DNA from: a bacterium
Lineage (GTDB): Bacteria > Vulcanimicrobiota > Vulcanimicrobiia > Vulcanimicrobiales > Vulcanimicrobiaceae
Direction: 5' to 3'
Assembly: GCA_021778415.1 (NCBI GenBank)
Contig: JAJYCL010000003.1
Location: forward strand, 62,001 to 126,000
DNA: 64,000 bases
In this document: positions 806-12,464 of the stretch, in pieces
Position numbering within the stretch: the stretch's first letter is position 1
Layout: each line of letters starts with the position of its first letter
The notes under the pieces: model-generated
Databases searched by the model: none
What the model saw: only the letters and a program-made list of their open reading frames with translations
Told to the model about the DNA's origin: nothing
Made by a program: the position numbers and the translations under genes

Positions 806-1570
806 CTACCAGGAGCCGCTAGCACCACCGCCGCCAAAGCCGCCTCCACCGCCGGAAAAGCCGCCTCCGCCACCACCACCAAAGCCCCCGCCGCCAAAGA
901 ATCCACCTCCGCCTCCACTTCCCGGCGGATTGACGAACATGAACGCATCAAGCCAATCGCCGTGGCGTTTTCCACGCCGGGCAATCGTGACGATGATGGC
1001 AAAAATGAGGCCGCCCCCGATAATAAGCGTCAACAGCACGAAGACGATTGCGCCCATCGTATCGTCGGAAGACGAGGTGTCGCTCGATGCCGCCGGTGCG
1101 TTTTTCTTTCCCGACAGAAAGCTGGGATCAATCGCGGTGAGCATCGCGTCGACTCCGCCGGTTATGGCGGCATCGGTGTCCCCATTTTTCATCGCCGGAG
1201 CGATCGTATCGGAGATGATGTTCGCAGAAATGGCATCGGTCAGTCTGCCTTCAAGCCCGTAACCAACCTCAATGCGCACCCGATGATCGCGCATAAAGAC
1301 AAAGAGAACGGCACCGTTATCCCGTCCTTTTTGGCCGACTCTCCACTTCTCCGCGGCGTTGACGGTCCATGTTTGCAGCGGTTCTCCGTCTGTGGATTGC
1401 CCGATCCAAACAATAACCTGCCGGTGCGTTTTGGTATCGAAGTTATGAAGCTCGGTTTCGAGATTCCGCCGCGTCGATGCCGAGAGTGCGTTGGCATTAT
1501 CCGTCACGTACTGCGTCGGCGACGGGGGAATGACGGCTAAAATCGCGCCGAGAATATAGGCTTGTATCAT
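806..1570 (-). CDS. TPM-domain membrane protein with glycine-rich tail (YgcG type)
   Basis: 254 residues. An N-terminal hydrophobic signal-like segment is followed by a TPM domain at about 20-150 (YVTDNANALSAS, later GYGLEGRLTD), one membrane helix near 180-200, and a C-terminal tail made almost entirely of Gly, Phe and Ser. This is the classical YgcG architecture: an exported domain, a membrane anchor and a low-complexity tail. The biochemical role of the family is not settled; TPM domains have been linked to phosphatase activity and to photosystem repair in plants. It is the last gene of a three-gene operon with a second TPM protein and LemA, and its start overlaps the stop of the preceding gene. 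Confidence 0.88.
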   Translation of the reverse strand: MIQAYILGAILAVIPPSPTQYVTDNANALSASTRRNLETELHNFDTKTHRQVIVWIGQSTDGEPLQTWTVNAAEKWRVGQKGRDNGAVLFVFMRDHRVRIEVGYGLEGRLTDAISANIISDTIAPAMKNGDTDAAITGGVDAMLTAIDPSFLSGKKNAPAASSDTSSSDDTMGAIVFVLLTLIIGGGLIFAIIVTIARRGKRHGDWLDAFMFVNPPGSGGGGGFFGGGGFGGGGGGGFSGGGGGFGGGGASGSW

Positions 1571-1938
1571 TGGGCAAAATGCTCGTGGAAGGCTACGCCA
1601 AGATGATCGAGACCGGCCACGACCGCGCCCGGGATATCGCCGACGGCAAACCGCGACCGCATCGCAGCTATTCCGTCTTTCCAGAATGCATCGCTGACGC
1701 GAGCATGTAATTCGCGATCGCCGATCATGGCGAATTGCCGCGCGTTCGGAGCCACAAGGATGAGCGCTGCGTTGTGATGTTTGTGCGTGTGCATCTGCTG
1801 CTGCTCGAATTCCGCTTTCGCTCGCTCGAATGCATCCACATTCCTATCGTTGACAAAACGGACGGCGACGCGAGCAGTCGTCCCGCTCTCGGCCCGCGCC
1901 ATCGCAAAATGAATCCGCGCTTTATCTTCCGGCGTCAT
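1567..1938 (-). CDS. Small TPM-domain protein
   Basis: 123 residues with no clear signal peptide or membrane helix. The middle reads AALILVAPNARQFAMIGDRELHARV, which resembles the core of TPM domains that lack an anchor (the 'I-D/GDRELHARV' stretch). It overlaps LemA upstream by 4 bases and the YgcG-type protein downstream by 4 bases, so all three are translationally coupled. LemA followed by two TPM proteins is a recurring bacterial arrangement and suggests they act together at the membrane. What they do biochemically is unknown. Confidence 0.8.
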   Translation of the reverse strand: MTPEDKARIHFAMARAESGTTARVAVRFVNDRNVDAFERAKAEFEQQQMHTHKHHNAALILVAPNARQFAMIGDRELHARVSDAFWKDGIAAMRSRFAVGDIPGAVVAGLDHLGVAFHEHFAQ

Positions 1939-2549
1939 GGCGAGAAATTGACCGTCGGCACTTTTTGCGCGCCGGCATCGGCGGCAAAATAGACCTTTTC
2001 TTGGAATCGCGATCCGAACATCGAAGCGATAAACACCGTGGGCACGGTATCGCGCTTTGTATTAAAGGCTCGCGCCATATCGTTATAGCGCATGCGTTCA
2101 ACGGCAATCCGATTTTCCGTTCCCTCGAGCTGTGATTGTAATGTGAGGAAGTTTTTGCTCGCTTTAAGATCCGGATACCGTTCCGACACGGCGAGTAAAT
2201 GGCTCAAGGCCATGCCAAGCTGACCTTGCGCCTGATCGTATTTTGCAAAAGCCTGGGGGTTATTGATTGCACCGGCGATGGCTTGCGGTGAAATTTGCCC
2301 GACCTTGGATCGCGCATCCGCAACGGCAATGTACGTACTCTTCTCAAAATTGGCGGCGCCCTTGACGGTCGCCACTAAATTGGGCACGAGATCTGCGCGG
2401 CGTTGATACACATTTTGTACCTGCCCCCACTGCCCTTGCACCGCTTGGTCGAGCGTCACGAGCGAATTATAGGTTGACCCGACGAAGAAACCAAAAATCA
2501 GCAGAAGTCCGAGGACAACCCAGAGCGTATATGATTTTTTGCCTTGCAT
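1935..2549 (-). CDS. lemA: LemA family protein
   Basis: 204 residues, typical LemA length. After a short cytoplasmic segment (MQGKKSYTL) comes one membrane helix (about residues 8-28), then a long helical domain with the family signature NVYQRRADLVPNLVATVKG and the later YNDMARAFN. The topology is a short N-tail, one helix and an exposed helical bundle. LemA proteins are widespread but have no assigned catalytic function. It is first in an operon with two TPM-domain genes. About 60 bases separate it from the DUF4127 gene upstream on the same strand, so it may have its own promoter or may be read through from the salvage operon. Confidence 0.9.
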   Translation of the reverse strand: MQGKKSYTLWVVLGLLLIFGFFVGSTYNSLVTLDQAVQGQWGQVQNVYQRRADLVPNLVATVKGAANFEKSTYIAVADARSKVGQISPQAIAGAINNPQAFAKYDQAQGQLGMALSHLLAVSERYPDLKASKNFLTLQSQLEGTENRIAVERMRYNDMARAFNTKRDTVPTVFIASMFGSRFQEKVYFAADAGAQKVPTVNFSP

Positions 2550-2610: not shown

Positions 2611-4188
2611 TCACGGCCGTAAATCGGGCGCAATTCCGACGTCGATCTGCGTCTCGAACGTGCGATTCCATGGGAGCGTTATCTGCATCGCAGCGATGTG
2701 ATATCCCGGATAGAGTTCGCGCAAAATTCTATCCGATGCGTGCCAAAGAGCCGCCCGATTGCGTGCAGCAATGGCTTTGGCCACGTCCGGCAACAAGTAC
2801 GTATGATCCGAAACGCCTTGCGCATCGAGGACCGTATTAAGTTCGGGCCGCACGTCGGCGTGAAATGCGACGTCGTCGATGATTCGCATAAACGTGAACG
2901 TCTTGTGGGCGAGCGCATCGTACGTGCCCAATCGTCTCCCAACGCCGGCTGCGACGGCTTCACTCAGAGCCGTACCAACGGAATTTGCGTCGGTGTTCCA
3001 GGCAGCATAGGCATCCAATTTCGATGCGACCCCGCTGTGCAATAACGAATCGCTAAAACGAGCTAGCGACCCGTAATGCCCGCCAAGAAAGGTCTCGTCG
3101 ACAAGGGCCACCGATCTGCCACGCAGCTCATCCGCGCGCAACGATTGCAGCAGAGCGCGATCATCGAGCGCAGTGCTTCCCGGCACGCGGACATCGAGAA
3201 CGATCTGGGGTCGATGCGTCACTTCAACACCGCCGATAAGCCGAATCAGATGCGCAATTGTCGTATGGATCGGCGAAAACTCAATGGGATCTTGGGTCAT
3301 CGCGCCACCGGCGTGCGAGTAGGCAACGGCGCTACGCCGATGCCAATGCACGGCACGATCCATCGCGCGAGCGACCAACACCATACCGAGTTCGTCGGCT
3401 CCGGGCTCGATCGCCGCGCGACGATCCAGGCCCAACGCTTGACGATGCGCACGGAGTCCGAGAACATCGCGAACATGCAAACCCACCGGCCCTGCATCAT
3501 CCTGCCCCAACACAACGCGTTGAACATCGTCGGCAGCCAACAAATCCAAGAGCGTATAATCGACCTGATAGTTGCGCGTTCGCGTCGCGATGTACTCATC
3601 GAACGCAGCTCCGGCAAGCGCGCGATCACGGGCTGCCGAAGCGCGTTCGCTCGGCAACGGCGGATCGTGCAGATTTGCATAGGCCATGATGTACGTCCAT
3701 ATCGGGTATGCCGCAAAAAACGATTGCGCCGATCCGAGAGCGGGGACGCCCGTGGGAGCGAGCCGCATGATCGTTGCAAAGGATGCCACCCATGCCGTGG
3801 GATGCGTGCGACGTAAACGCGCATATTCCAACATGCGGGTCCGAGCATCGAGATAACTCGGACCCGGAACGCGCGAGGCAACGAGGCCGCCATAGGCGAG
3901 CATATCGTTAGAAATAACGTAGGCACCCACATTATGCGGCGTTCTATTCAACCAGCCGATAATGGCGTCGGGATCGCCGAAGGTGAGATAATGTCCGAGC
4001 AACGACGTTGGCGGCTGGCTCACTTCGATGCCCGCGATCCGACCTAACAATTGCGGCAACTGTGCGGTCACCGGTCGGTCATCGAGCGGAACGAGAACGA
4101 TGACGGGAGCGCGAGCGGCTTGAGCCGCCGTCGCAAAGATGACGCAAAAACACACGGCAAGCGCAGGCCAAACGCGAGACATCCTCAC
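2611..4188 (-). CDS. DUF4127 family protein, exported
   Basis: 525 residues. It begins with a signal peptide (MRMSRVWPALAVCFCVIFA, cut near AQA). The mature protein opens VIVLVPLDDRPVT and contains SNDMLAYGGLVASR, both typical of DUF4127, a family of about 500 residues with no proven activity. The start overlaps the MurQ stop by 4 bases, so it is the last gene of the MurNAc/GlcNAc salvage operon. From that position I infer a role in handling cell-wall sugars or muropeptides outside the cytoplasm. The inference rests on gene order only. Confidence 0.85.
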   Translation of the reverse strand: MRMSRVWPALAVCFCVIFATAAQAARAPVIVLVPLDDRPVTAQLPQLLGRIAGIEVSQPPTSLLGHYLTFGDPDAIIGWLNRTPHNVGAYVISNDMLAYGGLVASRVPGPSYLDARTRMLEYARLRRTHPTAWVASFATIMRLAPTGVPALGSAQSFFAAYPIWTYIMAYANLHDPPLPSERASAARDRALAGAAFDEYIATRTRNYQVDYTLLDLLAADDVQRVVLGQDDAGPVGLHVRDVLGLRAHRQALGLDRRAAIEPGADELGMVLVARAMDRAVHWHRRSAVAYSHAGGAMTQDPIEFSPIHTTIAHLIRLIGGVEVTHRPQIVLDVRVPGSTALDDRALLQSLRADELRGRSVALVDETFLGGHYGSLARFSDSLLHSGVASKLDAYAAWNTDANSVGTALSEAVAAGVGRRLGTYDALAHKTFTFMRIIDDVAFHADVRPELNTVLDAQGVSDHTYLLPDVAKAIAARNRAALWHASDRILRELYPGYHIAAMQITLPWNRTFETQIDVGIAPDLRP

Positions 4189-5081
4189 GTCCCGGACGCA
4201 CCTAATGCGGCGCGAAGATTTCCGCGATGCTTCGCAAGATGCTCCTCTGCGGCTTGAACATCCAGCGACAGTCGCTGCATGACGACGGACGTTTTCACCG
4301 ATCCTGAAGCTGCCAAGAGCGACTCTGCCGTCTCTGCATCGACGAACGCGAGCATTTCAATGAGTCGCCGGGCCCGTTGACGCAACTTTGCGTTGGTCGG
4401 TACAACACTGACCATCAAGTTCTCGTACACATGACCCAAGCGGATCATCACGGCAGTCGATATGGTCGCAAGTGCAACCTTCTGCGCAGCACCCGCGAGC
4501 ATACGAGTCGAACCGGCAATCGGTTCTGCCCCCGTTTCCAAAAGAATCACCGTATCGGCAGCCAGAGCCAAAGGACTTGCAGCGACATTGCACAGAGCCA
4601 CCGTACTCGCGCCGAGTCCCTTTGCGGCTCGAAGTGCGGACACGACGAATGCTGCGCCTCCGCTCGCTGAAATACCGAGAACCACATCGCCTGCGCGAAC
4701 GCATTGCCGGATTTCACCCTCACCGGCTACGCCATCATCTTCAGCACCTTCAACAGCCTGTCGCAGCGCAGCAGAGCCGCCGGCAATATGTGCACAGAAC
4801 ATTTCAGCCGGAGCACCGAACGTCGGCGGTATTTCCGCAGCATCAAGAACGGCGAGGCGTCCGCTCGTCCCTGCTCCAACGTAGTGAAGACGACCGCCGG
4901 AAGCAAGCGCCGCAACGATTGTCTCAACGGCCTGCGCGATCGACGGCGTCGCATCGGCGACGTTCCGCACGGCGCGCGAGGCTTCATCGGCAAGCAGCAG
5001 CACCAGATCGTTCGTCGCGAGGGAATCAAGGTGTGTGGTGCGAGGATTTCGCGCCTCCGTCGGCACGATGTGTTCGCTCAC
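4185..5081 (-). CDS. murQ: N-acetylmuramic acid 6-phosphate etherase
   Basis: 298 residues, the usual MurQ length. The SIS fold is recognisable from YVGAGTSGRLAVLDAAEIPPT, with EGAEDD and SASGGAAFV following; the C-terminal helical region ends the protein. MurQ cleaves the lactyl ether of MurNAc-6-phosphate to give GlcNAc-6-phosphate and D-lactate in the cytoplasm. Its substrate would come from AnmK (encoded two genes upstream) or from the sugar kinase next to it, with which it overlaps by 4 bases. Confidence is high on sequence and context. Confidence 0.95.
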   Translation of the reverse strand: MSEHIVPTEARNPRTTHLDSLATNDLVLLLADEASRAVRNVADATPSIAQAVETIVAALASGGRLHYVGAGTSGRLAVLDAAEIPPTFGAPAEMFCAHIAGGSAALRQAVEGAEDDGVAGEGEIRQCVRAGDVVLGISASGGAAFVVSALRAAKGLGASTVALCNVAASPLALAADTVILLETGAEPIAGSTRMLAGAAQKVALATISTAVMIRLGHVYENLMVSVVPTNAKLRQRARRLIEMLAFVDAETAESLLAASGSVKTSVVMQRLSLDVQAAEEHLAKHRGNLRAALGASGT

Positions 5082-5983
5082 TCGCGCACCATGCGCTCGG
5101 CGAGCGACAACGCTCCCATCACCGGCGGGGGCGGATTTTTCTCCACGCGCATGAGGGGCAGTTCGTTGGTTATGCGCGTTTCCAACAAATACGTCAACAA
5201 CGAGTTTTCTTGAAGCAGGCCGCCGGCAAGAACGAGCGCAGCGTCCCGTTCGGAAAGCTCGGCATGACGAGCCACGGTGCGAGCCAATTCGGCAAGATCG
5301 AGGGCCGCTTGCTGAACGATTTTTGCTGCTGCGCGATGCCCGTCGGAGGCAAACGCGACGACCATTGGGGCAAGTTCGGCGAGGCGTCGATTCGGCGCGG
5401 CATCTTCATACACGCACGAGAGCAATCCTCGCACATCCGAAACACGAAAGTATTCGCAGATCGACTTTGTTAAACCGTCGCTTGGAGCCCGACCATCTAA
5501 GGCGCGCAACGTTAATCGGACGCCCTCACGACCAATGACGAATCCGCTCCCCTCGTCGCCAAATACATGGCCGTAGCCTCCGCAACGAAATGTGCGGTCA
5601 TCACGAACCGCAAACCCAATCGAGCCGGTGCCGGCAATAAGAACGACGCCATCGCCGTCCGGCACGGCAGCGCGAAGCGCAAGTAACGCATCGGGGATAA
5701 TCATCAATTGCCGCGGAGCGATGTCTGCCTTTATGGCCGTCGTATAGATTGCCAGCGTCGTGTCGCGATCGATACCGGCTGCACCGAGGCATAGTGCATC
5801 GGGTGTCGCGCCGCGCAGTTGTCCGCGCACGAGGTCAAGAATTATCGCAATACTCGCATCGGCACCGACGACATTCGGGTTGACGGCGGCAGCTTCGGCT
5901 TGCGCAGCAAGATGCCCGTCGCGAGCAACGATGATGCGAACGCGAGATGCTCCGGCATCGACTCCGACCACTACTCTCGACAT
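5078..5983 (-). CDS. BadF/BcrA-type amino-sugar kinase (GlcNAc/MurNAc kinase, MurK-like)
   Basis: 301 residues of the actin-like ATPase fold. The phosphate-1 loop is GVDAGASRVRIIV, the phosphate-2 region is VLIAGTGSIGFAV, and GGYGHVFGDEGSG follows. This is the BadF/BadG/BcrA/BcrD group that includes N-acetylglucosamine kinase and the clostridial MurNAc/GlcNAc kinase MurK. Within this operon the natural role is phosphorylating free GlcNAc (and possibly MurNAc) released by NagZ. It overlaps AnmK upstream by 13 bases and MurQ downstream by 4. The exact sugar preference cannot be told from sequence alone. Confidence 0.87.
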   Translation of the reverse strand: MSRVVVGVDAGASRVRIIVARDGHLAAQAEAAAVNPNVVGADASIAIILDLVRGQLRGATPDALCLGAAGIDRDTTLAIYTTAIKADIAPRQLMIIPDALLALRAAVPDGDGVVLIAGTGSIGFAVRDDRTFRCGGYGHVFGDEGSGFVIGREGVRLTLRALDGRAPSDGLTKSICEYFRVSDVRGLLSCVYEDAAPNRRLAELAPMVVAFASDGHRAAAKIVQQAALDLAELARTVARHAELSERDAALVLAGGLLQENSLLTYLLETRITNELPLMRVEKNPPPPVMGALSLAERMVRE

Positions 5984-7119
5984 TCGATTTCCATCTTCTT
6001 TCTCAGTACGTGAAGGTCCAGCGGCGCGATCGCTCCGAGCGGAACTGCTCGCTGCGCGCCGGTCGCCGTCGGAATATTCGCAGTTCGCCCCCGGAGCGTT
6101 TCGTAGCCGAGAACGGCGAATGCCAACGCTTCTTTTGCATCGGGATCGATTCCGAAGGCCATCGTCGTTTCGACGGGCACCTCATGGAGTCGTTCTTGGA
6201 GCATCTGCATCAGCGGAGCGTGGTGGATGCCCCCTCCCGAACAGATCACACGCCGAGCGCCGGGAGCGTACCGTTGGATCGCATCGGCTACAACCGTCGC
6301 CGTGAGGGCGGCGAGCGTAGCGCACCCGTCCTCAAGCGTCAGCTGGCGCAAGACGGCTTCGTAGCTGCGGCGAAATGCTTCGCCGAACTGTTCGCGGCCG
6401 GTCGTTTTTGGCGCCGAGCGCGAAAAATAGGGATGCCCGAGCATCGTAGCAAGGGCTTGCGCGTGGACAACGCCGCGACGTGCGACCTGGCCATCATGAT
6501 CGTAGCGTCGTGCCCCATTTGTCCGTTCATGAATAAACGCATCAAGAAGCATCACGCCGGGTCCGGCATCAAAAGCGACAACGTCGTCACGCTGCGCCGC
6601 CCGGGGAAGCGATGTCACATTCGCAATCCCGCCGATATTCACGGCAACCCGCGATTCTTCATCGGAACGTAAAAGCAGCCAATCGATATACGGCACGAGC
6701 GGAGCACCATATCCGCTACTTGCCGTATCGCCGCTGCGAAAATCATAGCAAACACTGACGCCAAGGCGTTCTCGCACGATGAACGGATCCCCGATTTGCC
6801 AGGTGCAATGCGATTGACCGTCATGAAAAATCGTCTGTCCGTGCGAAGCAATGAAATCGACGGCAGTATCACCACGGACGTGCTCCGCAGCCGATGCAAA
6901 AGCTACGCCTAAGGCGTGGTGAAGACGAGCAAAATCTCCGGCTTGCGCGAGATTCGGCGGCATAAGCGAGAGCAACTCTTCCCGCAATCCCGCGGGAAAC
7001 GCAAGCGTTGCGAATCGGAGCACCCGTGCGTCATACCCGTTTCCCTGCGGAAACAACTCGACAAGTGCCGCATCGATGCCATCGAGTGAGGTGCCGGACA
7101 TGACTCCGATCGCAAGCAT
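5971..7119 (-). CDS. anmK: Anhydro-N-acetylmuramic acid kinase
   Basis: 382 residues from the ATG at 7119, which shares its first base with the TAA stop of the preceding gene (TAATG); an in-frame ATG 24 bases upstream is less likely. The N-terminus MLAIGVMSGTSLDGIDAALVE is the AnmK signature, and later ASHGQTIFHDG, VNIGGIANVT and CSGGGIHH are present. AnmK hydrolyses 1,6-anhydroMurNAc and phosphorylates it to MurNAc-6-phosphate, the substrate of MurQ. Together these indicate recycling of lytic-transglycosylase products, as in Gram-negative type organisms. Confidence 0.95.
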   Translation of the reverse strand: MLAIGVMSGTSLDGIDAALVELFPQGNGYDARVLRFATLAFPAGLREELLSLMPPNLAQAGDFARLHHALGVAFASAAEHVRGDTAVDFIASHGQTIFHDGQSHCTWQIGDPFIVRERLGVSVCYDFRSGDTASSGYGAPLVPYIDWLLLRSDEESRVAVNIGGIANVTSLPRAAQRDDVVAFDAGPGVMLLDAFIHERTNGARRYDHDGQVARRGVVHAQALATMLGHPYFSRSAPKTTGREQFGEAFRRSYEAVLRQLTLEDGCATLAALTATVVADAIQRYAPGARRVICSGGGIHHAPLMQMLQERLHEVPVETTMAFGIDPDAKEALAFAVLGYETLRGRTANIPTATGAQRAVPLGAIAPLDLHVLRKKMEIECRE

Positions 7120-8138
7120 TACCGATCGACCATCGCAACACACGCATCATAGAACGCAGCGCGCAGTTCCCGAGTATCTCGGCGACCGTAATAGACGGCA
7201 TTGGTAAGCAACACGCCAATGAGTTCGCGCTTCGGTTCGGCCCACACGCACGTGCCGACGAATCCCGTATGTCCGAACGACTCGGCAGAAAATGCCGCGC
7301 CGCACGAATTATCATCCGATGTTTTTAACGCCCAGCCGAGTCCTCGACGTAACACCGGATCACATGCCTGCTCGGAGACCGCTTCTGCAACAAGATGAGC
7401 GCTCACGCATCGTTCCGTCGTCGTCGAGCTTCTCGCGAGATATTCGCGCGCCAACCACGCGACGTCGGCTGCCGTACCAAAGAGTCCGGCGTGCCCGGCG
7501 ACGCCGCCCATTAAATACGCCTTTTCGTCATGAACGTATCCTTGAACGCGCCCGCGCCATCCGTCATTTTCAGTCGCCGGTATCCATGGACGCTCGTGCC
7601 GACGTGGCGCAAATCCCAATGACGTCCGATGAAAATCTGCAATCAGTGCTCCCAGAGAGCGACGATACACGCGTTCGAGCAGCACACCTACGGCGATAAA
7701 ACCAAGATCGCTATAGACGACGCGTTCACCGGGCTTGGCAACAAGATCGCGTTCGAGCGAAAATTGCGCGACATTCGATCCTAAGAGTTCGCGATAGTCG
7801 GCTCCCGAGTTCAAACCAGCCGTATGCGAGAGCAACATCCGCAGCGTTATGCTGCGGTGTTCGTTATTGCGCCACTCGGAAACGATCTCGCATAGCGGAG
7901 CGTCTAAGCGGAGCAGACCATCGTCGACGGCTCGCAATGCAAGCGTCGCAACAAACAGTTTGGTGATTGAGGCGAGATCGAAACGCGTATCGACAAACAC
8001 CGGCTTTGCACCGACATCATCTCGTGTGGAACCAAACGCACCTTCATACCGTAACGATCCACGATGTTCAACGCGAGCGACCGCGCCCGTACACCACGAA
8101 CCGATGGCATCATGAACGATCCGATCAATTGCGTTCAT
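7119..8138 (-). CDS. Serine beta-lactamase-like hydrolase, probable muropeptide amidase (AmiE-like)
   Basis: 339 residues of the class C beta-lactamase/PBP fold. The SxxK nucleophile motif is SITK at residues 57-60, the second motif is YSD at 142-144, and HTG near 290 replaces KTG. There is no signal peptide, so it is cytoplasmic. In Bacillus subtilis the muropeptide-salvage cluster encodes an amidase of this fold, AmiE (YbbE), beside NagZ and MurQ, cutting the MurNAc-L-Ala bond. Here the gene sits between nagZ and anmK with overlaps on both sides. The amidase role is inferred from this parallel; a D-Ala esterase or peptidase is the alternative. Confidence 0.78.
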   Translation of the reverse strand: MNAIDRIVHDAIGSWCTGAVARVEHRGSLRYEGAFGSTRDDVGAKPVFVDTRFDLASITKLFVATLALRAVDDGLLRLDAPLCEIVSEWRNNEHRSITLRMLLSHTAGLNSGADYRELLGSNVAQFSLERDLVAKPGERVVYSDLGFIAVGVLLERVYRRSLGALIADFHRTSLGFAPRRHERPWIPATENDGWRGRVQGYVHDEKAYLMGGVAGHAGLFGTAADVAWLAREYLARSSTTTERCVSAHLVAEAVSEQACDPVLRRGLGWALKTSDDNSCGAAFSAESFGHTGFVGTCVWAEPKRELIGVLLTNAVYYGRRDTRELRAAFYDACVAMVDR

Positions 8139-9610
8139 CCGACGGGTAGAGATCCGGTTGTCGAAGCGCGTCCATCAAGAACATCGTGCAGCGCCGAGAG
8201 CATCGCCGCATCGTCGCCATACGTGCAAACGACATGCTTTGCTTGTGGAAAACTCAATGCATCGTAGGGCTCCAGCGTTGAGACCAGCAACGTTTCCGGT
8301 CTCTCGGCGAGTATCCGAACGATCGCGGCGTGCTGTTCAGGATAGAGATGGGCACGTCGCATAAAGACGACGATTCTCTCCTCGCCAAGCGACTGCATGA
8401 CCGCATCGACCTCGGCGAAACTCGGCTGTAATGGCAACGTTATGATATGCGACTCAAACCCTTTTGCACTCGGCTCGAGGTCAACGGCGCCATGCTCTAC
8501 TTCTCCCGAGAAGGCAACGATGCGATGAAACGGAGCGACCGGGTTTCCGCGTAGCGTCGTGATACTTCGCGCAGCGATTGTTTTGGCGATACCTGCGTAG
8601 GGTGGGCGTGCGTCCACCGCTAATGGCGCGGCAAACTGGGTGCGCAGCGAACGCATCCGTTCAACGGCTTGCATCATACGCTCGAGGGGAATACGTCCAG
8701 AAGCGATGGCCGAAGCGATAGCGCGAATAATGCGCCGCGATTCATCCGGACCTCCCGACAATATCAATGCATCGACGCCGGCAGCGAGCGCACAGATCGC
8801 GCCTTCGACGATTCCGAGCGTTCCTGCGATCGCTTGCATTTCGAGCGCATCGGAAAACAGCACGCCCGAAAACGCGCAGTTCGTGCGTAACCACTCGTTG
8901 AGAAACGGTCCATTAAGCGTCACCGGACGTTCGTCGTGAAGCGCTTCGATGACGATGTGTGCCGACATAACGGCGCGGCACTGCGGTAGTATCGCTCGAA
9001 AAGGCGCCAGATCGCGGGTGGCAAGGCGTTGCAACGAGCCATCGATCACGGGCAGAGCCAGGTGCGAATCCACCGATGTGCCGCCATGACCGGGAAAGTG
9101 CTTCGGCGTTGCGACGATTCCGCCACGGTGCAACCCACGCGTAAATGCGCCGGCCGTGGCGATGACGCGCGCCGGATCGCGCCCGAAGGATCTCGTTCCA
9201 ATGACCGTACTCTGCGGTGCGAGCGCTAAATCGAGGACCGGCGCAAAGTTCACATTCATGCCCATGCGCCGCAAATCGAAGGCGCATTGTTCACCCGCTT
9301 GCGCAATAAGCGTGGTGTCTCCGGTCGCCGACATCGCCATTGCCGATGGCAAACACTCGACACCATCGCGCAAACGAACGACGCGCCCACCTTCCTGATC
9401 GATCGCGATCACGGGCGGAAGCAAGCGATTTGCTCGTGCCCTCATAGCGTCGGTCAACGCACGACCTTGCTCAACTGACGTCAAATTGCGAGCAAAAAAA
9501 ACGTAGCCGCCAAAGGGCGTTGCCCCAACTTCATCATGAAATGTCGCAGCGTCCGTAGCGTGAAAACCGGTCACTACGGTCGCCGCCGCTAGTTCTTCGT
9601 ATGCGTTCAA
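8135..9610 (-). CDS. nagZ: Beta-N-acetylhexosaminidase, glycoside hydrolase family 3
   Basis: 491 residues. The NagZ-type GH3 catalytic loop KHFPGHGGTSVDSH lies at 170-183 (the Asp-His pair is the acid/base), and the likely nucleophile Asp254 is in FSDALEM. A C-terminal domain of about 150 residues follows, as in the longer Gram-positive NagZ proteins. There is no signal peptide, so it acts in the cytoplasm. It removes GlcNAc from GlcNAc-(anhydro)MurNAc muropeptides. Its ends overlap the neighbouring genes by 4 bases each, placing it second in the salvage operon. Confidence 0.93.
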   Translation of the reverse strand: MNAYEELAAATVVTGFHATDAATFHDEVGATPFGGYVFFARNLTSVEQGRALTDAMRARANRLLPPVIAIDQEGGRVVRLRDGVECLPSAMAMSATGDTTLIAQAGEQCAFDLRRMGMNVNFAPVLDLALAPQSTVIGTRSFGRDPARVIATAGAFTRGLHRGGIVATPKHFPGHGGTSVDSHLALPVIDGSLQRLATRDLAPFRAILPQCRAVMSAHIVIEALHDERPVTLNGPFLNEWLRTNCAFSGVLFSDALEMQAIAGTLGIVEGAICALAAGVDALILSGGPDESRRIIRAIASAIASGRIPLERMMQAVERMRSLRTQFAAPLAVDARPPYAGIAKTIAARSITTLRGNPVAPFHRIVAFSGEVEHGAVDLEPSAKGFESHIITLPLQPSFAEVDAVMQSLGEERIVVFMRRAHLYPEQHAAIVRILAERPETLLVSTLEPYDALSFPQAKHVVCTYGDDAAMLSALHDVLDGRASTTGSLPVG

Positions 9611-10587
9611 GGGATTCGTGCTCCAGAGAAAAGATCAAATCGATGTATATCGTCGGCGTGGATATGCAGGCCAAGATTCGCGTTGACGGCGGGCGTATCG
9701 CGTGCATCGACGCGGACGTGCACATCGCCGGCCGTCGTTGCCACCAAAAGAATCACGTCGCTGCCCAATCGCGTTAGGCTGAGGACACGCCCGCGAAGAT
9801 CGCCATCGTCGCAAATGCGAGCGCAATGCGGACGAAACCCGAGAGCCATTCCTGAAAAGCCGAAATGTGCAGCGAGACGTTCACTCACGTTCATGGGCGG
9901 CTCGCCTAAAAACCGGGCGACGCGTATGGTCGCCGGAGCATCGTACACCGCTTGCGGTGGTCCGATTTGCTCGACGCGGCCGTCGATAAGAACCGCAATT
10001 CTCGTCCCGACCGTCATCGCTTCGGCGTGATCATGCGTCACATACAATGCCGGCCCGCCGGCCGCGCGACTGACGGCTCCAACGAGGGCAAGCGCCGAGG
10101 AACGGCCCTGCGGATCGATGTGCGCAAGCGGCTCATCGTAGAGCATCGCCCGAGGCGCACTCGCCAAGGCGCGAGCGAAAGCAATGCGTTGCCGCTCGCC
10201 GCCCGAACATGCACCGACGCGACGCAAAAGCAGGCCATCAAGGTCCAGGAGTTCGACAATCTCTGCCATGCGCGCGTGAGAGACGCGCGAAACCATCGTC
10301 AAGTGGGCGCGCACCGAGAGCATCGGCAAGAGGACATCGTCTTGAAAGAGCAGAGCGAAACGACGATCCTGCGGGGAATCCGCGGCGATGCTGCGACCAG
10401 CGAAATGCAACGAACCTGAATCCATTGTCCCGAGTCCGGCGACGATGCGTAAGAGCGTCGTTTTTCCCGCCCCCGACGGGCCAACGATCGCGACGATTTC
10501 ACCGGAATCGACGGTGAGGCACACGTCATCGACCTGCGGATTCGACCGACCAGCAAAGCGTTTACTGATCGCGTTGAGCGCAAGCAA
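9607..10587 (-). CDS. Sugar-type ABC transporter ATP-binding protein (MalK/UgpC-like)
   Basis: 326 residues. Walker A is GPSGAGKTT, the Q-loop is LLFQDDVLL, the signature motif is CSGGERQR, Walker B is AMLYDEP, the D-loop is HIDP and the H-loop is VTHDHAEA. A C-terminal OB-type regulatory domain of about 80 residues follows, as in MalK/UgpC. It is the first gene of the salvage operon, yet no permease or binding protein is nearby. It may energise membrane subunits encoded elsewhere, as shared ATPases such as MsmK do. The likely cargo is amino sugars or muropeptides, inferred from the operon. Confidence 0.85.
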   Translation of the reverse strand: MLALNAISKRFAGRSNPQVDDVCLTVDSGEIVAIVGPSGAGKTTLLRIVAGLGTMDSGSLHFAGRSIAADSPQDRRFALLFQDDVLLPMLSVRAHLTMVSRVSHARMAEIVELLDLDGLLLRRVGACSGGERQRIAFARALASAPRAMLYDEPLAHIDPQGRSSALALVGAVSRAAGGPALYVTHDHAEAMTVGTRIAVLIDGRVEQIGPPQAVYDAPATIRVARFLGEPPMNVSERLAAHFGFSGMALGFRPHCARICDDGDLRGRVLSLTRLGSDVILLVATTAGDVHVRVDARDTPAVNANLGLHIHADDIHRFDLFSGARIP

Positions 10588-10596
10588 ATGGCGCTC

Positions 10597-10935
10597 CTAG
10601 TGAATGCGAACGAGTTGCGCGACGGATTCGCCGCCAATATCGCTGATATAGACGTCCACGGCCGCCCCCGACCGCAAATCGGTCAGTGAGCCATTGCCGT
10701 TGTGCTTCGTCTCGATGCTTGTCGATGGCAACACTCGAATAGTTCGCACGCCATCGGGAAATTTTACGACGAGAAGTCCGCGGCCGTAATCGACCGAGAC
10801 GATTTTTCCGTGCAAAACTCCTCGATTATGGGCTGGAGCACGTTGCGTCCAGAAATTCCGCACGGGCGGCGGACTCGCGGCAACCGGCTGAGCCGCCGTG
10901 AAAGCCAGGGCGACGAACGCAAACAATCGGATCAT
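10597..10935 (-). CDS. Small exported protein of unknown function
   Basis: 112 residues from the ATG at 10935, where a signal peptide begins (MIRLFAFVALAFTAAQ, cut near VAA). An earlier in-frame ATG at 10995 would add a charged leader and overlap the divergent gene, so I rejected it. The mature part is a small beta-rich domain (GKIVSVDYGRGLLVVKF, then TIRVLPSTSIE) resembling OB-like or DUF5666-type modules. It lies 9 bases before the ABC ATPase and could be the promoter-proximal member of the salvage operon. I do not recognise a function. Confidence 0.6.
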   Translation of the reverse strand: MIRLFAFVALAFTAAQPVAASPPPVRNFWTQRAPAHNRGVLHGKIVSVDYGRGLLVVKFPDGVRTIRVLPSTSIETKHNGNGSLTDLRSGAAVDVYISDIGGESVAQLVRIH

Positions 10936-10988
10936 GGTATCCGTACAACGAGTACCGGGCAACGAGCGTTTCACCACTCCGTTCTCGA

Positions 10989-12464
10989 ATGACATTCTTC
11001 ATGCGTTTATTCGCGGCCATCCTCATCGCCTCTCTCGCCGTCGTGCCGAGTTCGGCATGGGCAACGCCCCAAAGCGCGCTCCTCGCAAGAATGTCGGTCG
11101 CCTCCGGCGGCCCATACACGGCCCAAATCGTATCGACGTGGACGACCAACGACGGAAGCGCTGCCGGCATTGTGACGACAACACGTCAGGGCGATGCGTT
11201 TCTGAGCCGCCGTTGCCTTGGGGCACTCTGCGCCGGCCGATATTTCGATGGAACGACCCTGTTCGCCGTTGACTCAAACGACGATCTCCTTCCGCTCACA
11301 TCGGCCGATCTCGAGGACCTGCGCGACCTTCGCTCGGCCTTGGCGCTCATGTTTTTGGCCCCCGACTTCCGGCGAAACGGTGGAATAATCACGCTTGAGC
11401 CCCCGTTTCATCAGGCGGGCAAAGATCGCGATATCATGCAGCTAGCGATGCCCGATGGCCGAAAACTCAGCATTTGGGTGAATCCGAAAACGGCTCTCGT
11501 GACGCGCATCGACCTTGACCTCCGAAGCATTCGCCTGCGAGAGTATCGTCGGGTTGGCCCCTACATGATCCCCTTTCAAGAAATCTATGCTCGCGCACGA
11601 CCGCGCACATTTCTATCGCGCACTGTTATTTCCGGAAATTTGCACGCACCGATCGGCATCGTGAGCGCAGTCCATCGCGACGCACCCGCCGCTCGGCGTG
11701 TTCGGGGGTCGACGCTTCCTATTTTCCCTTGCCAATTGGCCAACGTCGCGACCCGCTGCCTCGTCGACACCGGAAATAGCGGCATGGCCATTTCCCTTCG
11801 CTTAGCCGAACAGCTCAATGCGCCGGTCGTCGGAGCCGGAACGGCCCACGGGCTAGGAACCTACTCAACCGAAGTCGTCCGAAGCGGCCCGCTGACGCTT
11901 GCCAACGCACAGTTCGGCCCGGCACGGTATCTCGTTCTCCCGGATCTTTCCGGCTTGGGATTCGACGTTGTCGTAGGAAACGCCATATTCTCATCGCTTA
12001 CGGCGACGCTCGATTCACAGTCCTTACGATTTGGAACGCCGCCGAAGAGCAACGCGCAAGCAATCGCCGTGAGCTTTCCCGCACTCCTTCCCGAACTTTC
12101 CGTGGGTATCGACAATCAAAAGGCAGATGTTGATCTCGATACCGGAGACGATGCCGGATTCGATTTCTCGGCGACATTCGTCAAAAAATTTCCTCGACTT
12201 TTCACGCCGACAACGTCAATGAGGGTCAAAGGCATAGGCGGAACGGCGGTTACGCAACGTGGCGACGATCGGGTATTGCATCTTGGAACGTGTACGATTC
12301 TTGCATTTCCTACGCAATTCACGGCGGCGATGCCCTCGTCTACTGACGGGCGCATCGGCGCACGCATTCTTCATTCCATGACCCTTCGTTTCAACTATCC
12401 GGCCGGACGCATTGAATTTTCTCCCGCTGGCAAGACACCACCATGCACGCGATCATCACCTTAA
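10989..12464 (+). CDS. Exported protein with two retropepsin-like aspartyl protease modules
   Basis: 491 residues with a signal peptide (MRLFAAILIASLAVVPSSA). The N-terminal third is an outer-membrane-lipoprotein-like beta domain. Two retropepsin-type repeats follow: the first has LVDTGNSGMAIS around 255, the second DLDTGDDAGFDF around 380. Each carries the D-T-G triad of aspartyl proteases. Bacterial proteins of this kind are usually annotated as retropepsin-like aspartic protease; a substrate is not known. The 3' end overlaps the DUF167 gene by 22 bases. The second triad lacks the usual Ser after Gly-Asn (GDDA), so only one module may be active. Confidence 0.72.
   Translation: MTFFMRLFAAILIASLAVVPSSAWATPQSALLARMSVASGGPYTAQIVSTWTTNDGSAAGIVTTTRQGDAFLSRRCLGALCAGRYFDGTTLFAVDSNDDLLPLTSADLEDLRDLRSALALMFLAPDFRRNGGIITLEPPFHQAGKDRDIMQLAMPDGRKLSIWVNPKTALVTRIDLDLRSIRLREYRRVGPYMIPFQEIYARARPRTFLSRTVISGNLHAPIGIVSAVHRDAPAARRVRGSTLPIFPCQLANVATRCLVDTGNSGMAISLRLAEQLNAPVVGAGTAHGLGTYSTEVVRSGPLTLANAQFGPARYLVLPDLSGLGFDVVVGNAIFSSLTATLDSQSLRFGTPPKSNAQAIAVSFPALLPELSVGIDNQKADVDLDTGDDAGFDFSATFVKKFPRLFTPTTSMRVKGIGGTAVTQRGDDRVLHLGTCTILAFPTQFTAAMPSSTDGRIGARILHSMTLRFNYPAGRIEFSPAGKTPPCTRSSP

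Follow-up and report, generated by a model that had tools for sequence, protein, structure and literature searches.

Sialic-acid (nan) catabolic clusters combine NanA with a 2-epimerase (NanE or AGE), a ROK kinase, an RpiR-type regulator and an importer. For the sugars of peptidoglycan, one account (PMC5061867) sets out both the Gram-negative recycling of anhydro-muropeptides by NagZ, LdcA, AmpD, AnmK and MurQ, and the Bacillus subtilis cluster murQ-murR-murP-amiE-nagZ-ybbC. MurK-type kinases, which act on N-acetylmuramic acid (MurNAc) and N-acetylglucosamine (GlcNAc), offer a further comparison, the specificity pocket of the Tannerella enzyme being S133-P134-L135 (PMC10465942). Here we analyse a seven-gene operon of murein-sugar salvage type, which ends in a gene of the family DUF4127, in a 64,000-nucleotide stretch of contig JAJYCL010000003.1 (assembly GCA_021778415.1, positions 62,001 to 126,000; "the window") from a bacterium of the Vulcanimicrobiaceae. 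Because its tight link to murQ is confined to the window's order and its neighbours elsewhere are often amino-sugar genes, DUF4127 looks like an amino-sugar-pathway protein and not a muropeptide-specific one.

The operon occupies window positions 10587-2611 on the minus strand, in the order ATPase, glycoside hydrolase family 3 (GH3) enzyme, serine hydrolase, AnmK, BadF kinase, MurQ and DUF4127. As the original prediction had claimed, all seven open reading frames (ORFs) lie on this strand and adjacent ones overlap, by 4, 4, 1, 13, 4 and 4 bases along the operon (range 1-13); the overlap of 1 takes as the AnmK start the ATG inside "taatg" at 7119, and a GTG at 7143 would make it 25. The DUF4127 gene (2611..4188, minus strand) encodes a protein with a signal-like N-terminus (approximately residues 1-25) that matches Pfam PF13552 with E 1.2e-94 and 318.1 bits, against a gathering score of 27, covering positions 1-488 of 489.

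To place this arrangement within the phylum, match positions of DUF4127, MurQ and AnmK were compared in a sample of 148 genomes, from which MurQ rows below 83 bits were dropped as SIS-domain relatives, along with one row of 87.5 bits from family f12 (G013, positions 3-200 of 291, in a 600-residue frame). DUF4127 is present in 126 of the 148 genomes, two of which (G125 and G139) were counted as absent in the position comparison, leaving 124. Both DUF4127 and MurQ occur in 88 of the 98 genomes of the window's family, with a gap of at most 500 bases in 62 and at most 2 kb in 82, and the order's other family, with 4 genomes, has them within 500 bases of each other in all three genomes that carry both. 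The class includes a third family, f3, in which 12 of 14 genomes carry MurQ, 11 have AnmK within 6 kb of MurQ and 4 carry DUF4127; DUF4127 is never within 2 kb of MurQ there, and the two are 6.7-13.5 kb apart in the 3 genomes with both. Among the 32 genomes outside the class, 19 have both genes and none of the 19 has them on the same contig, a figure weakened by fragmented assemblies. Over the whole sample, 11 genomes, some of them incomplete, have DUF4127 but no counted MurQ, and 14 have MurQ but no DUF4127.

Additionally, 60 stretches from relatives in the phylum were searched by tblastn with the seven window proteins. All 20 same-family loci contain NagZ, the AmiE-like hydrolase, AnmK, MurQ and DUF4127; 19 of them also contain BadF and 13 the ATPase, and gene order is kept in all 20, save for the variable ATPase and BadF genes and one 7-kb insertion before MurQ, a conservation far beyond chance. 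Two loci from the other family of the order hold all operon genes except the ATPase. The nine f3 MurQ loci, one of them cut beside AnmK, have AnmK and MurQ in 9, NagZ in 8, the AmiE-like hydrolase in 8, BadF in 6 and DUF4127 in 2; the core of NagZ, AmiE-like hydrolase, AnmK, BadF kinase and MurQ is therefore common to the class, and the tight DUF4127-murQ link is found in the window's order alone. In a FastTree phylogeny of 70 DUF4127 domain sequences (rooted at the midpoint; its backbone nodes are weak, and some of the slices end in a partial codon), the eight sampled murQ-linked copies form one clade with support 1.0, and three f3 copies are its sister.

We then examined the surroundings of DUF4127 in other bacteria, using the best 80 of 507 confirmed loci from named genomes of many phyla, with flanks of up to 10 kb, some of them short; this sample leans to relatives of the query, and at least 6 of the 80 loci come from the window's own phylum. 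Neighbour clusters were named by Pfam from one representative each, and the gene calls, here and at some of the loci described below, were greedy ORF picks that include some false frames. The most recurrent neighbours are a PF12831-type FAD oxidoreductase (22 of the 80 loci), a ROK protein (19), two ATP-binding cassette (ABC) permeases (19 each) and NanE (18), followed by a solute-binding protein (17), an uncurated barrel that we call c7 (15), RpiR (15) and Gfo/Idh (14); GHL10 and esterase genes (9 each), SusC (7), SusD (6), MFS (5) and HydA (4) are rarer. A GlcNAc 2-epimerase (AGE) was found in 5 loci, one member scoring over the curated cut-off, and NanE, c7 and AGE jointly cover 38 of the 80, NanE and c7 never co-occurring. 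Searches of the same 80 loci with the window proteins at E 1e-5 gave no match to MurQ, AnmK or AmiE, and matches to NagZ in 4 and BadF in 2; with 20 Bacilli loci added, MurQ, AnmK and AmiE were near none of 100. These counts show an association of DUF4127 with a NanA-free set of 2-epimerase, PF12831 FAD oxidoreductase, ROK or BadF kinase and importer. A sialic-acid pathway was considered and rejected, since a DHDPS/NanA-like match lay near 1 of the 100 loci (tblastn with 11 DHDPS-family proteins, E 1e-4), although a distant NanA could be missed. The RpiR-type NanR of Streptococcus senses N-acetylmannosamine 6-phosphate (PMC12713135), which fits the RpiR genes seen around DUF4127.

The picture was partly repeated in a sample of 200 Bacilli genomes, the class of G157 (the genome of locus L060, a Lentibacillus record), in which DUF4127 was present in 30; NanE and MurQ were sought in these 30, and a 50-bit DUF4127 fragment in G323 was excluded from the copy counts. 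Fifteen copies score at least 389 bits, with NanE within 10 kb in 10 of them, and MurQ over its cut-off was within 10 kb of none of the 32 Bacilli copies. Of the 20 Bacilli loci fetched, 11 hold high-scoring copies; within the stretch fetched, 8 of these 11 have the FAD oxidoreductase and 8 have NanE or c7. Beyond its class but still in the window's phylum, 6 of 14 loci have c7 no more than 1.5 kb from DUF4127 (one of the six, L133, shares its contig with L062 of the wide sample), and HydA was found at 1 more.

The c7-type proteins, of about 235 residues, are often encoded directly upstream of DUF4127 (L033:3420-4124, L094:9280-9993 and 13 more loci). Three scanned members had no Pfam match of weight and two had no NCBIfam match, and the family shares the motifs KVHxNVEHRASGT and PTQRxIxP..IGAIVTG in a predicted phosphate-binding-type TIM barrel. 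Profile comparison by hhalign matched c7 to NanE with probability 88.9 (E 2.4e-6, 181 columns), against at most 20.8 for five other families and 0.4 for shuffled columns; NanE against DHDPS gave 83.2, so that part of the c7-NanE score may be general barrel likeness. The 50 structural matches listed for the c7 model are to TrpA and similar phosphate-binding barrels, at Z 18.8-21.6, and NanE is not one of them. From the profile match and the predicted barrel, we infer that c7 may be an epimerase.

NanE was also found in all 17 examined genomes of the window's own order and in none of 4 f3 genomes. Eight of these 17 NanE loci, including that of the window's genome, were searched by tblastn: all eight have a PF12831-type FAD oxidoreductase no more than 5 kb from NanE, five have HydA and six a BadF kinase. 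At the NanE locus of the window's genome (L203, G000:C36:24310-31760), Pfam confirms NanE, a BadF kinase, the FAD oxidoreductase and HydA; this second BadF kinase has the hexokinase 2e2n as its nearest solved relative (E 7.8e-24) and is more distant from 8zo3 (1.9e-12). Much of the partner set seen with DUF4127 in other bacteria is present in the window's genome, though DUF4127 itself sits on the murQ operon. The L203 locus also encodes a 100-residue protein with an HELYH motif, has HydA after a gap, and by eye adjoins cytochrome oxidase-like genes.

The DUF4127 protein itself has a hydrophobic N-terminal segment, and in its AlphaFold model (pLDDT 92.9) residues 1-23 fall below 50, so that the N-terminus appears signal-like, in agreement with the predicted export. 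Such calls come from a hydropathy scan by coordinates, not from a signal-peptide predictor, and on this basis all 9 Bacteroidota copies have a signal-like N-terminus, as do both Verrucomicrobia-type copies, 3 of the 4 from Acidobacteria and that of Georgenia. Among named Bacillota copies the figure is 1 of 32, among high-scoring Bacilli copies 1 of 11, and among those from Zipacnadia/WS1 and Melainabacteria-type genomes 0 of 9. All 24 loci caught from the window's class show a hydrophobic stretch ahead of the motif, the nearest starts leaving only 13-16 residues in some. Thirty sequences from the phylum share 30 invariant columns, many of them D, E, R or N and including D36, D95, D231, D265, E266, E303, D364, N398, N402 and D439, a pattern that fits an enzyme. 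Sequence searches of the PDB gave no match up to E 1, and Foldseek with the model returned a best E of 1.3e-3, with TM-scores below 0.3 among the matches listed. The best VIA-align match was a methylmalonyl-CoA mutase domain (Z 10.1, 132 residues), the next being 8.5 and below, and no match listed was full-length; the matches thus appear to be Rossmann-like parts only, from which newness of the fold does not follow.

The original prediction had given DUF4127 a role in muropeptide handling, to be checked by its neighbourhood with cell-wall sugar genes. This stands in so far as the murQ linkage holds in the window's order and DUF4127 keeps company with amino-sugar genes, but it does not carry over to murein-specific genes outside that order. 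That DUF4127 is a periplasmic enzyme specific to peptidoglycan recycling, which would for example cut anhydro-disaccharides or peptides before uptake, draws on MurQ lying within 2 kb in 82 of the 88 family genomes with both genes, on the signal-like N-terminus, on the NagZ relatives at 4 of the 80 loci, and on GHL10 relatives at 9 of the 80 (one cluster) with another GHL10 protein in L045, a family that we take to include the denuded-glycan hydrolase DigH. DigH degrades denuded glycans (PMC12288456). We nevertheless consider such an enzyme unlikely, if a serious candidate, given that the linkage is confined to one order, that f3 keeps the core mostly without DUF4127 (DUF4127 in 4 and MurQ in 12 of 14), that 11 phylum-sample genomes, some incomplete, hold DUF4127 without a counted MurQ, and that MurQ, AnmK and AmiE have no match near any of the 100 other loci. 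A passenger with an unrelated envelope or metabolic role, landed by chance downstream of murQ in one ancestor and retained, would fit the single clade of murQ-linked copies, the 0.5-3.6 kb that separate DUF4127 from MurQ in some relatives (in L113 a pyruvate-carboxylase-like gene lies between the two) and the f3 DUF4127 in a region of ABC ATPase and Peripla_BP_6 genes; the 4-base overlap with murQ in the window, the retention of the linkage in most sampled family genomes and the recurrence of amino-sugar neighbours in other phyla make it improbable. That DUF4127 is no enzyme but binds or senses an amino sugar is very improbable indeed: the weak partial structural matches include 4ry0, a sugar-binding protein (Z 8.5, 109 residues), but many D, E, R and N residues are invariant, the same Bacillota operons hold separate solute-binding-protein genes, and both exported and non-exported forms exist.

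Given the conserved salvage operon and the order-confined clade of murQ-linked DUF4127 copies, the reading that DUF4127 is an enzyme of amino-sugar-containing glycans or glycosides and not a dedicated muropeptide step has in our judgement an even chance of being right. Several observations weigh against an amino-sugar role. None of the three epimerase types is within the fetched flank, sometimes short, at 42 of the 80 loci, and none of the searched partners was seen at 7 of the 14 loci outside the class. A second Bacilli group of 17 copies at 218-269 bits (for example G285, G220 and G325) has NanE within 10 kb in no case, and its 9 fetched loci show neither FAD oxidoreductase nor NanE or c7 in the fetched stretch, while 5 of the 9 look exported. 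NanE and DUF4127 are on different contigs in the window's genome, and G024 and G044 carry DUF4127 without NanE.

As for its reaction, our guess is that DUF4127 is an amino-sugar glycan-cleaving or -modifying enzyme feeding GlcNAc 6-phosphate (GlcNAc-6-P). The ABC importers of Bacillota and the SusCD and MFS genes of Bacteroidota suggest that it would encounter its substrate, a glycan or glycoside containing an amino sugar, in whichever compartment this enters first on uptake, and cleave or modify it there. In most Bacillota that would be the cytoplasm, reached by an ABC importer, and in Bacteroidota the periplasm, reached through SusCD; for the window's organism the periplasm is again the probable site. 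The product would be an N-acetyl amino sugar that ends as GlcNAc-6-P, and the position of DUF4127 on the murQ operon may then reflect a shared end product and envelope source. More tentatively, and with somewhat less than even confidence, we propose that DUF4127, the PF12831 FAD oxidoreductase, a 2-epimerase (NanE, AGE or NanE-like barrel) and a ROK or BadF kinase, sometimes with HydA, make up an undescribed, widespread NanA-free amino-sugar catabolic pathway. DUF4127 would be its entry enzyme, with an overall fold not seen before, exported in Bacteroidota and the window's class, cytoplasmic in most Bacillota, and captured by a MurNAc recycling operon in one order. The terms "DUF4127" and "PF13552" appear in no paper of the open literature searched, and four of the five partner terms together led to one unrelated paper, subscription papers being mostly outside the scope of both searches. 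With these neighbours, a family that had no function becomes an enzyme candidate open to testing, with named likely partners, and a muropeptide reading taken from one operon could misdirect DUF4127 assays.

Family searches of the remaining six genes, all on the minus strand, with both Pfam and NCBIfam agree with the gene names originally given. The first (9607..10587) encodes a sugar-type ABC transporter ATPase, UgpC/MalK-like with a TOBE_2 domain (ABC_tran 5.5e-29, TOBE_2 7.2e-07), whose top NCBIfam match is UgpC at 228.6 bits, below the cut-off of 432. The NagZ-type GH3 beta-N-acetylhexosaminidase (8135..9610) matches Glyco_hydro_3 with E 3.6e-69, PRK05337 with 218.6 bits (cut-off 207) and the GH3 beta-N-acetylglucosaminidase 6k5j with E 4.6e-65, over a stretch that includes KHFPGHG..DSH and FSDALEM. 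The AmiE/PBP4B-type serine hydrolase (7119..8138; Beta-lactamase 6e-48) is a candidate MurNAc-L-Ala amidase, its top NCBIfam match being PBP4B at 88.5 bits, below the cut-off of 385; its translation contains SITK, YSD and HTG, which we take to be the SxxK, Y-x-N-like and HTG motifs of such hydrolases. By eye, no signal peptide is visible in either of these two proteins. AnmK, the anhydro-MurNAc kinase (5971..7119), is matched by Pfam AnmK (7.5e-95), NF007148 (406.4 bits, cut-off 387) and PDB 3cqy (E 1.7e-61), and MurQ, the MurNAc-6-phosphate (MurNAc-6-P) etherase (4185..5081), has SIS/GKRP domains and matches PRK05441 with 331.6 bits (cut-off 168), TIGR00274 with 275.5, under its cut-off of 302, and 4s12 with E 2.1e-61. 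The BadF-family, MurK-like amino-sugar kinase (5078..5983; BcrAD_BadFG 2.6e-26) is nearest in the PDB to the MurNAc/GlcNAc kinase 8zo3 (E 8.5e-27), which scores better than hexokinase 2e2n (8.9e-22); in the alignment to 8zo3 (GGYGHVFGDEGSG vs GGWGHIIGDEGSG), its GGYGHVF resembles GGWGHII and the GGxGH histidine is kept in both.

With an etherase over a curated cut-off linked in conserved order to NagZ, amidase and AnmK/MurNAc kinase families, the locus is in gene content of the MurQ-type MurNAc recycling kind, and the six genes plausibly form a cytoplasmic MurNAc/GlcNAc salvage route. Judged by their families, muropeptides or disaccharides would enter the cytoplasm, where NagZ would strip GlcNAc and the AmiE-like hydrolase the peptide; AnmK would phosphorylate 1,6-anhydroMurNAc supplied by lytic transglycosylases, the MurK-like BadF kinase would phosphorylate MurNAc or GlcNAc, and MurQ would convert MurNAc-6-P to GlcNAc-6-P. 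Elsewhere the genome has one NamZ_N homologue, seven SLT-domain matches and a NagA-like gene (211.9 bits, below the cut-off of 225.65), so that both anhydroMurNAc and MurNAc could arise, which would explain two kinases in one operon. The NamZ_N protein, which represents the ybbC family of the B. subtilis cluster, is not linked to the operon.

Three features flank the operon. A 132-residue, exported-looking ORF without a Pfam match (10597-10995, minus strand) lies 9 bases upstream of the ATPase and may belong to the operon as its eighth member. Genes for LemA (Pfam 2.9e-52) and two other proteins (806-2549, minus strand) begin 61 bases past DUF4127 on the same strand and could be co-transcribed. 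A glyoxalase-fold protein, methylmalonyl-CoA epimerase-like by eye, is encoded at 366-803 on the plus strand, and its gene is near DUF4127 in several class members (L138, L155, L112 and L113), including f3 genomes in which DUF4127 is not beside murQ.

Set against described systems, the core of six genes is a mixed form of the known MurNAc recycling routes, and the predicted mixture holds, AnmK standing beside a hydrolase of AmiE/PBP4B type and a BadF kinase resembling MurK; the operon is a clear case of a murein-sugar salvage line with both AnmK and a MurK-like kinase. It shares MurQ, an AmiE-type serine hydrolase and a GH3 NagZ with the B. subtilis cluster (PMC5061867), but has AnmK and the BadF kinase instead of MurP and MurR, with DUF4127 added. 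A signal peptide is visible by eye in neither its NagZ nor its AmiE-like protein, whereas the two B. subtilis counterparts work extracellularly according to that source. With the Gram-negative route, as given there, it has NagZ, AnmK and MurQ in common, as well as seven SLT matches in the genome, but has the AmiE-like hydrolase where AmpD would act. Among MurK-type MurNAc/GlcNAc kinases (PMC10465942), 8zo3 is the nearest solved relative of the window's BadF kinase, a putative enzyme of the same specificity. Finally, NanE or AGE, the ROK kinase, the RpiR regulator and the importer around DUF4127 in Bacillota and Bacteroidota recall the nan clusters; unlike those, the DUF4127 loci have a DHDPS/NanA-like match near 1 of 100, and add the PF12831 FAD oxidoreductase, sometimes HydA, and DUF4127 itself.

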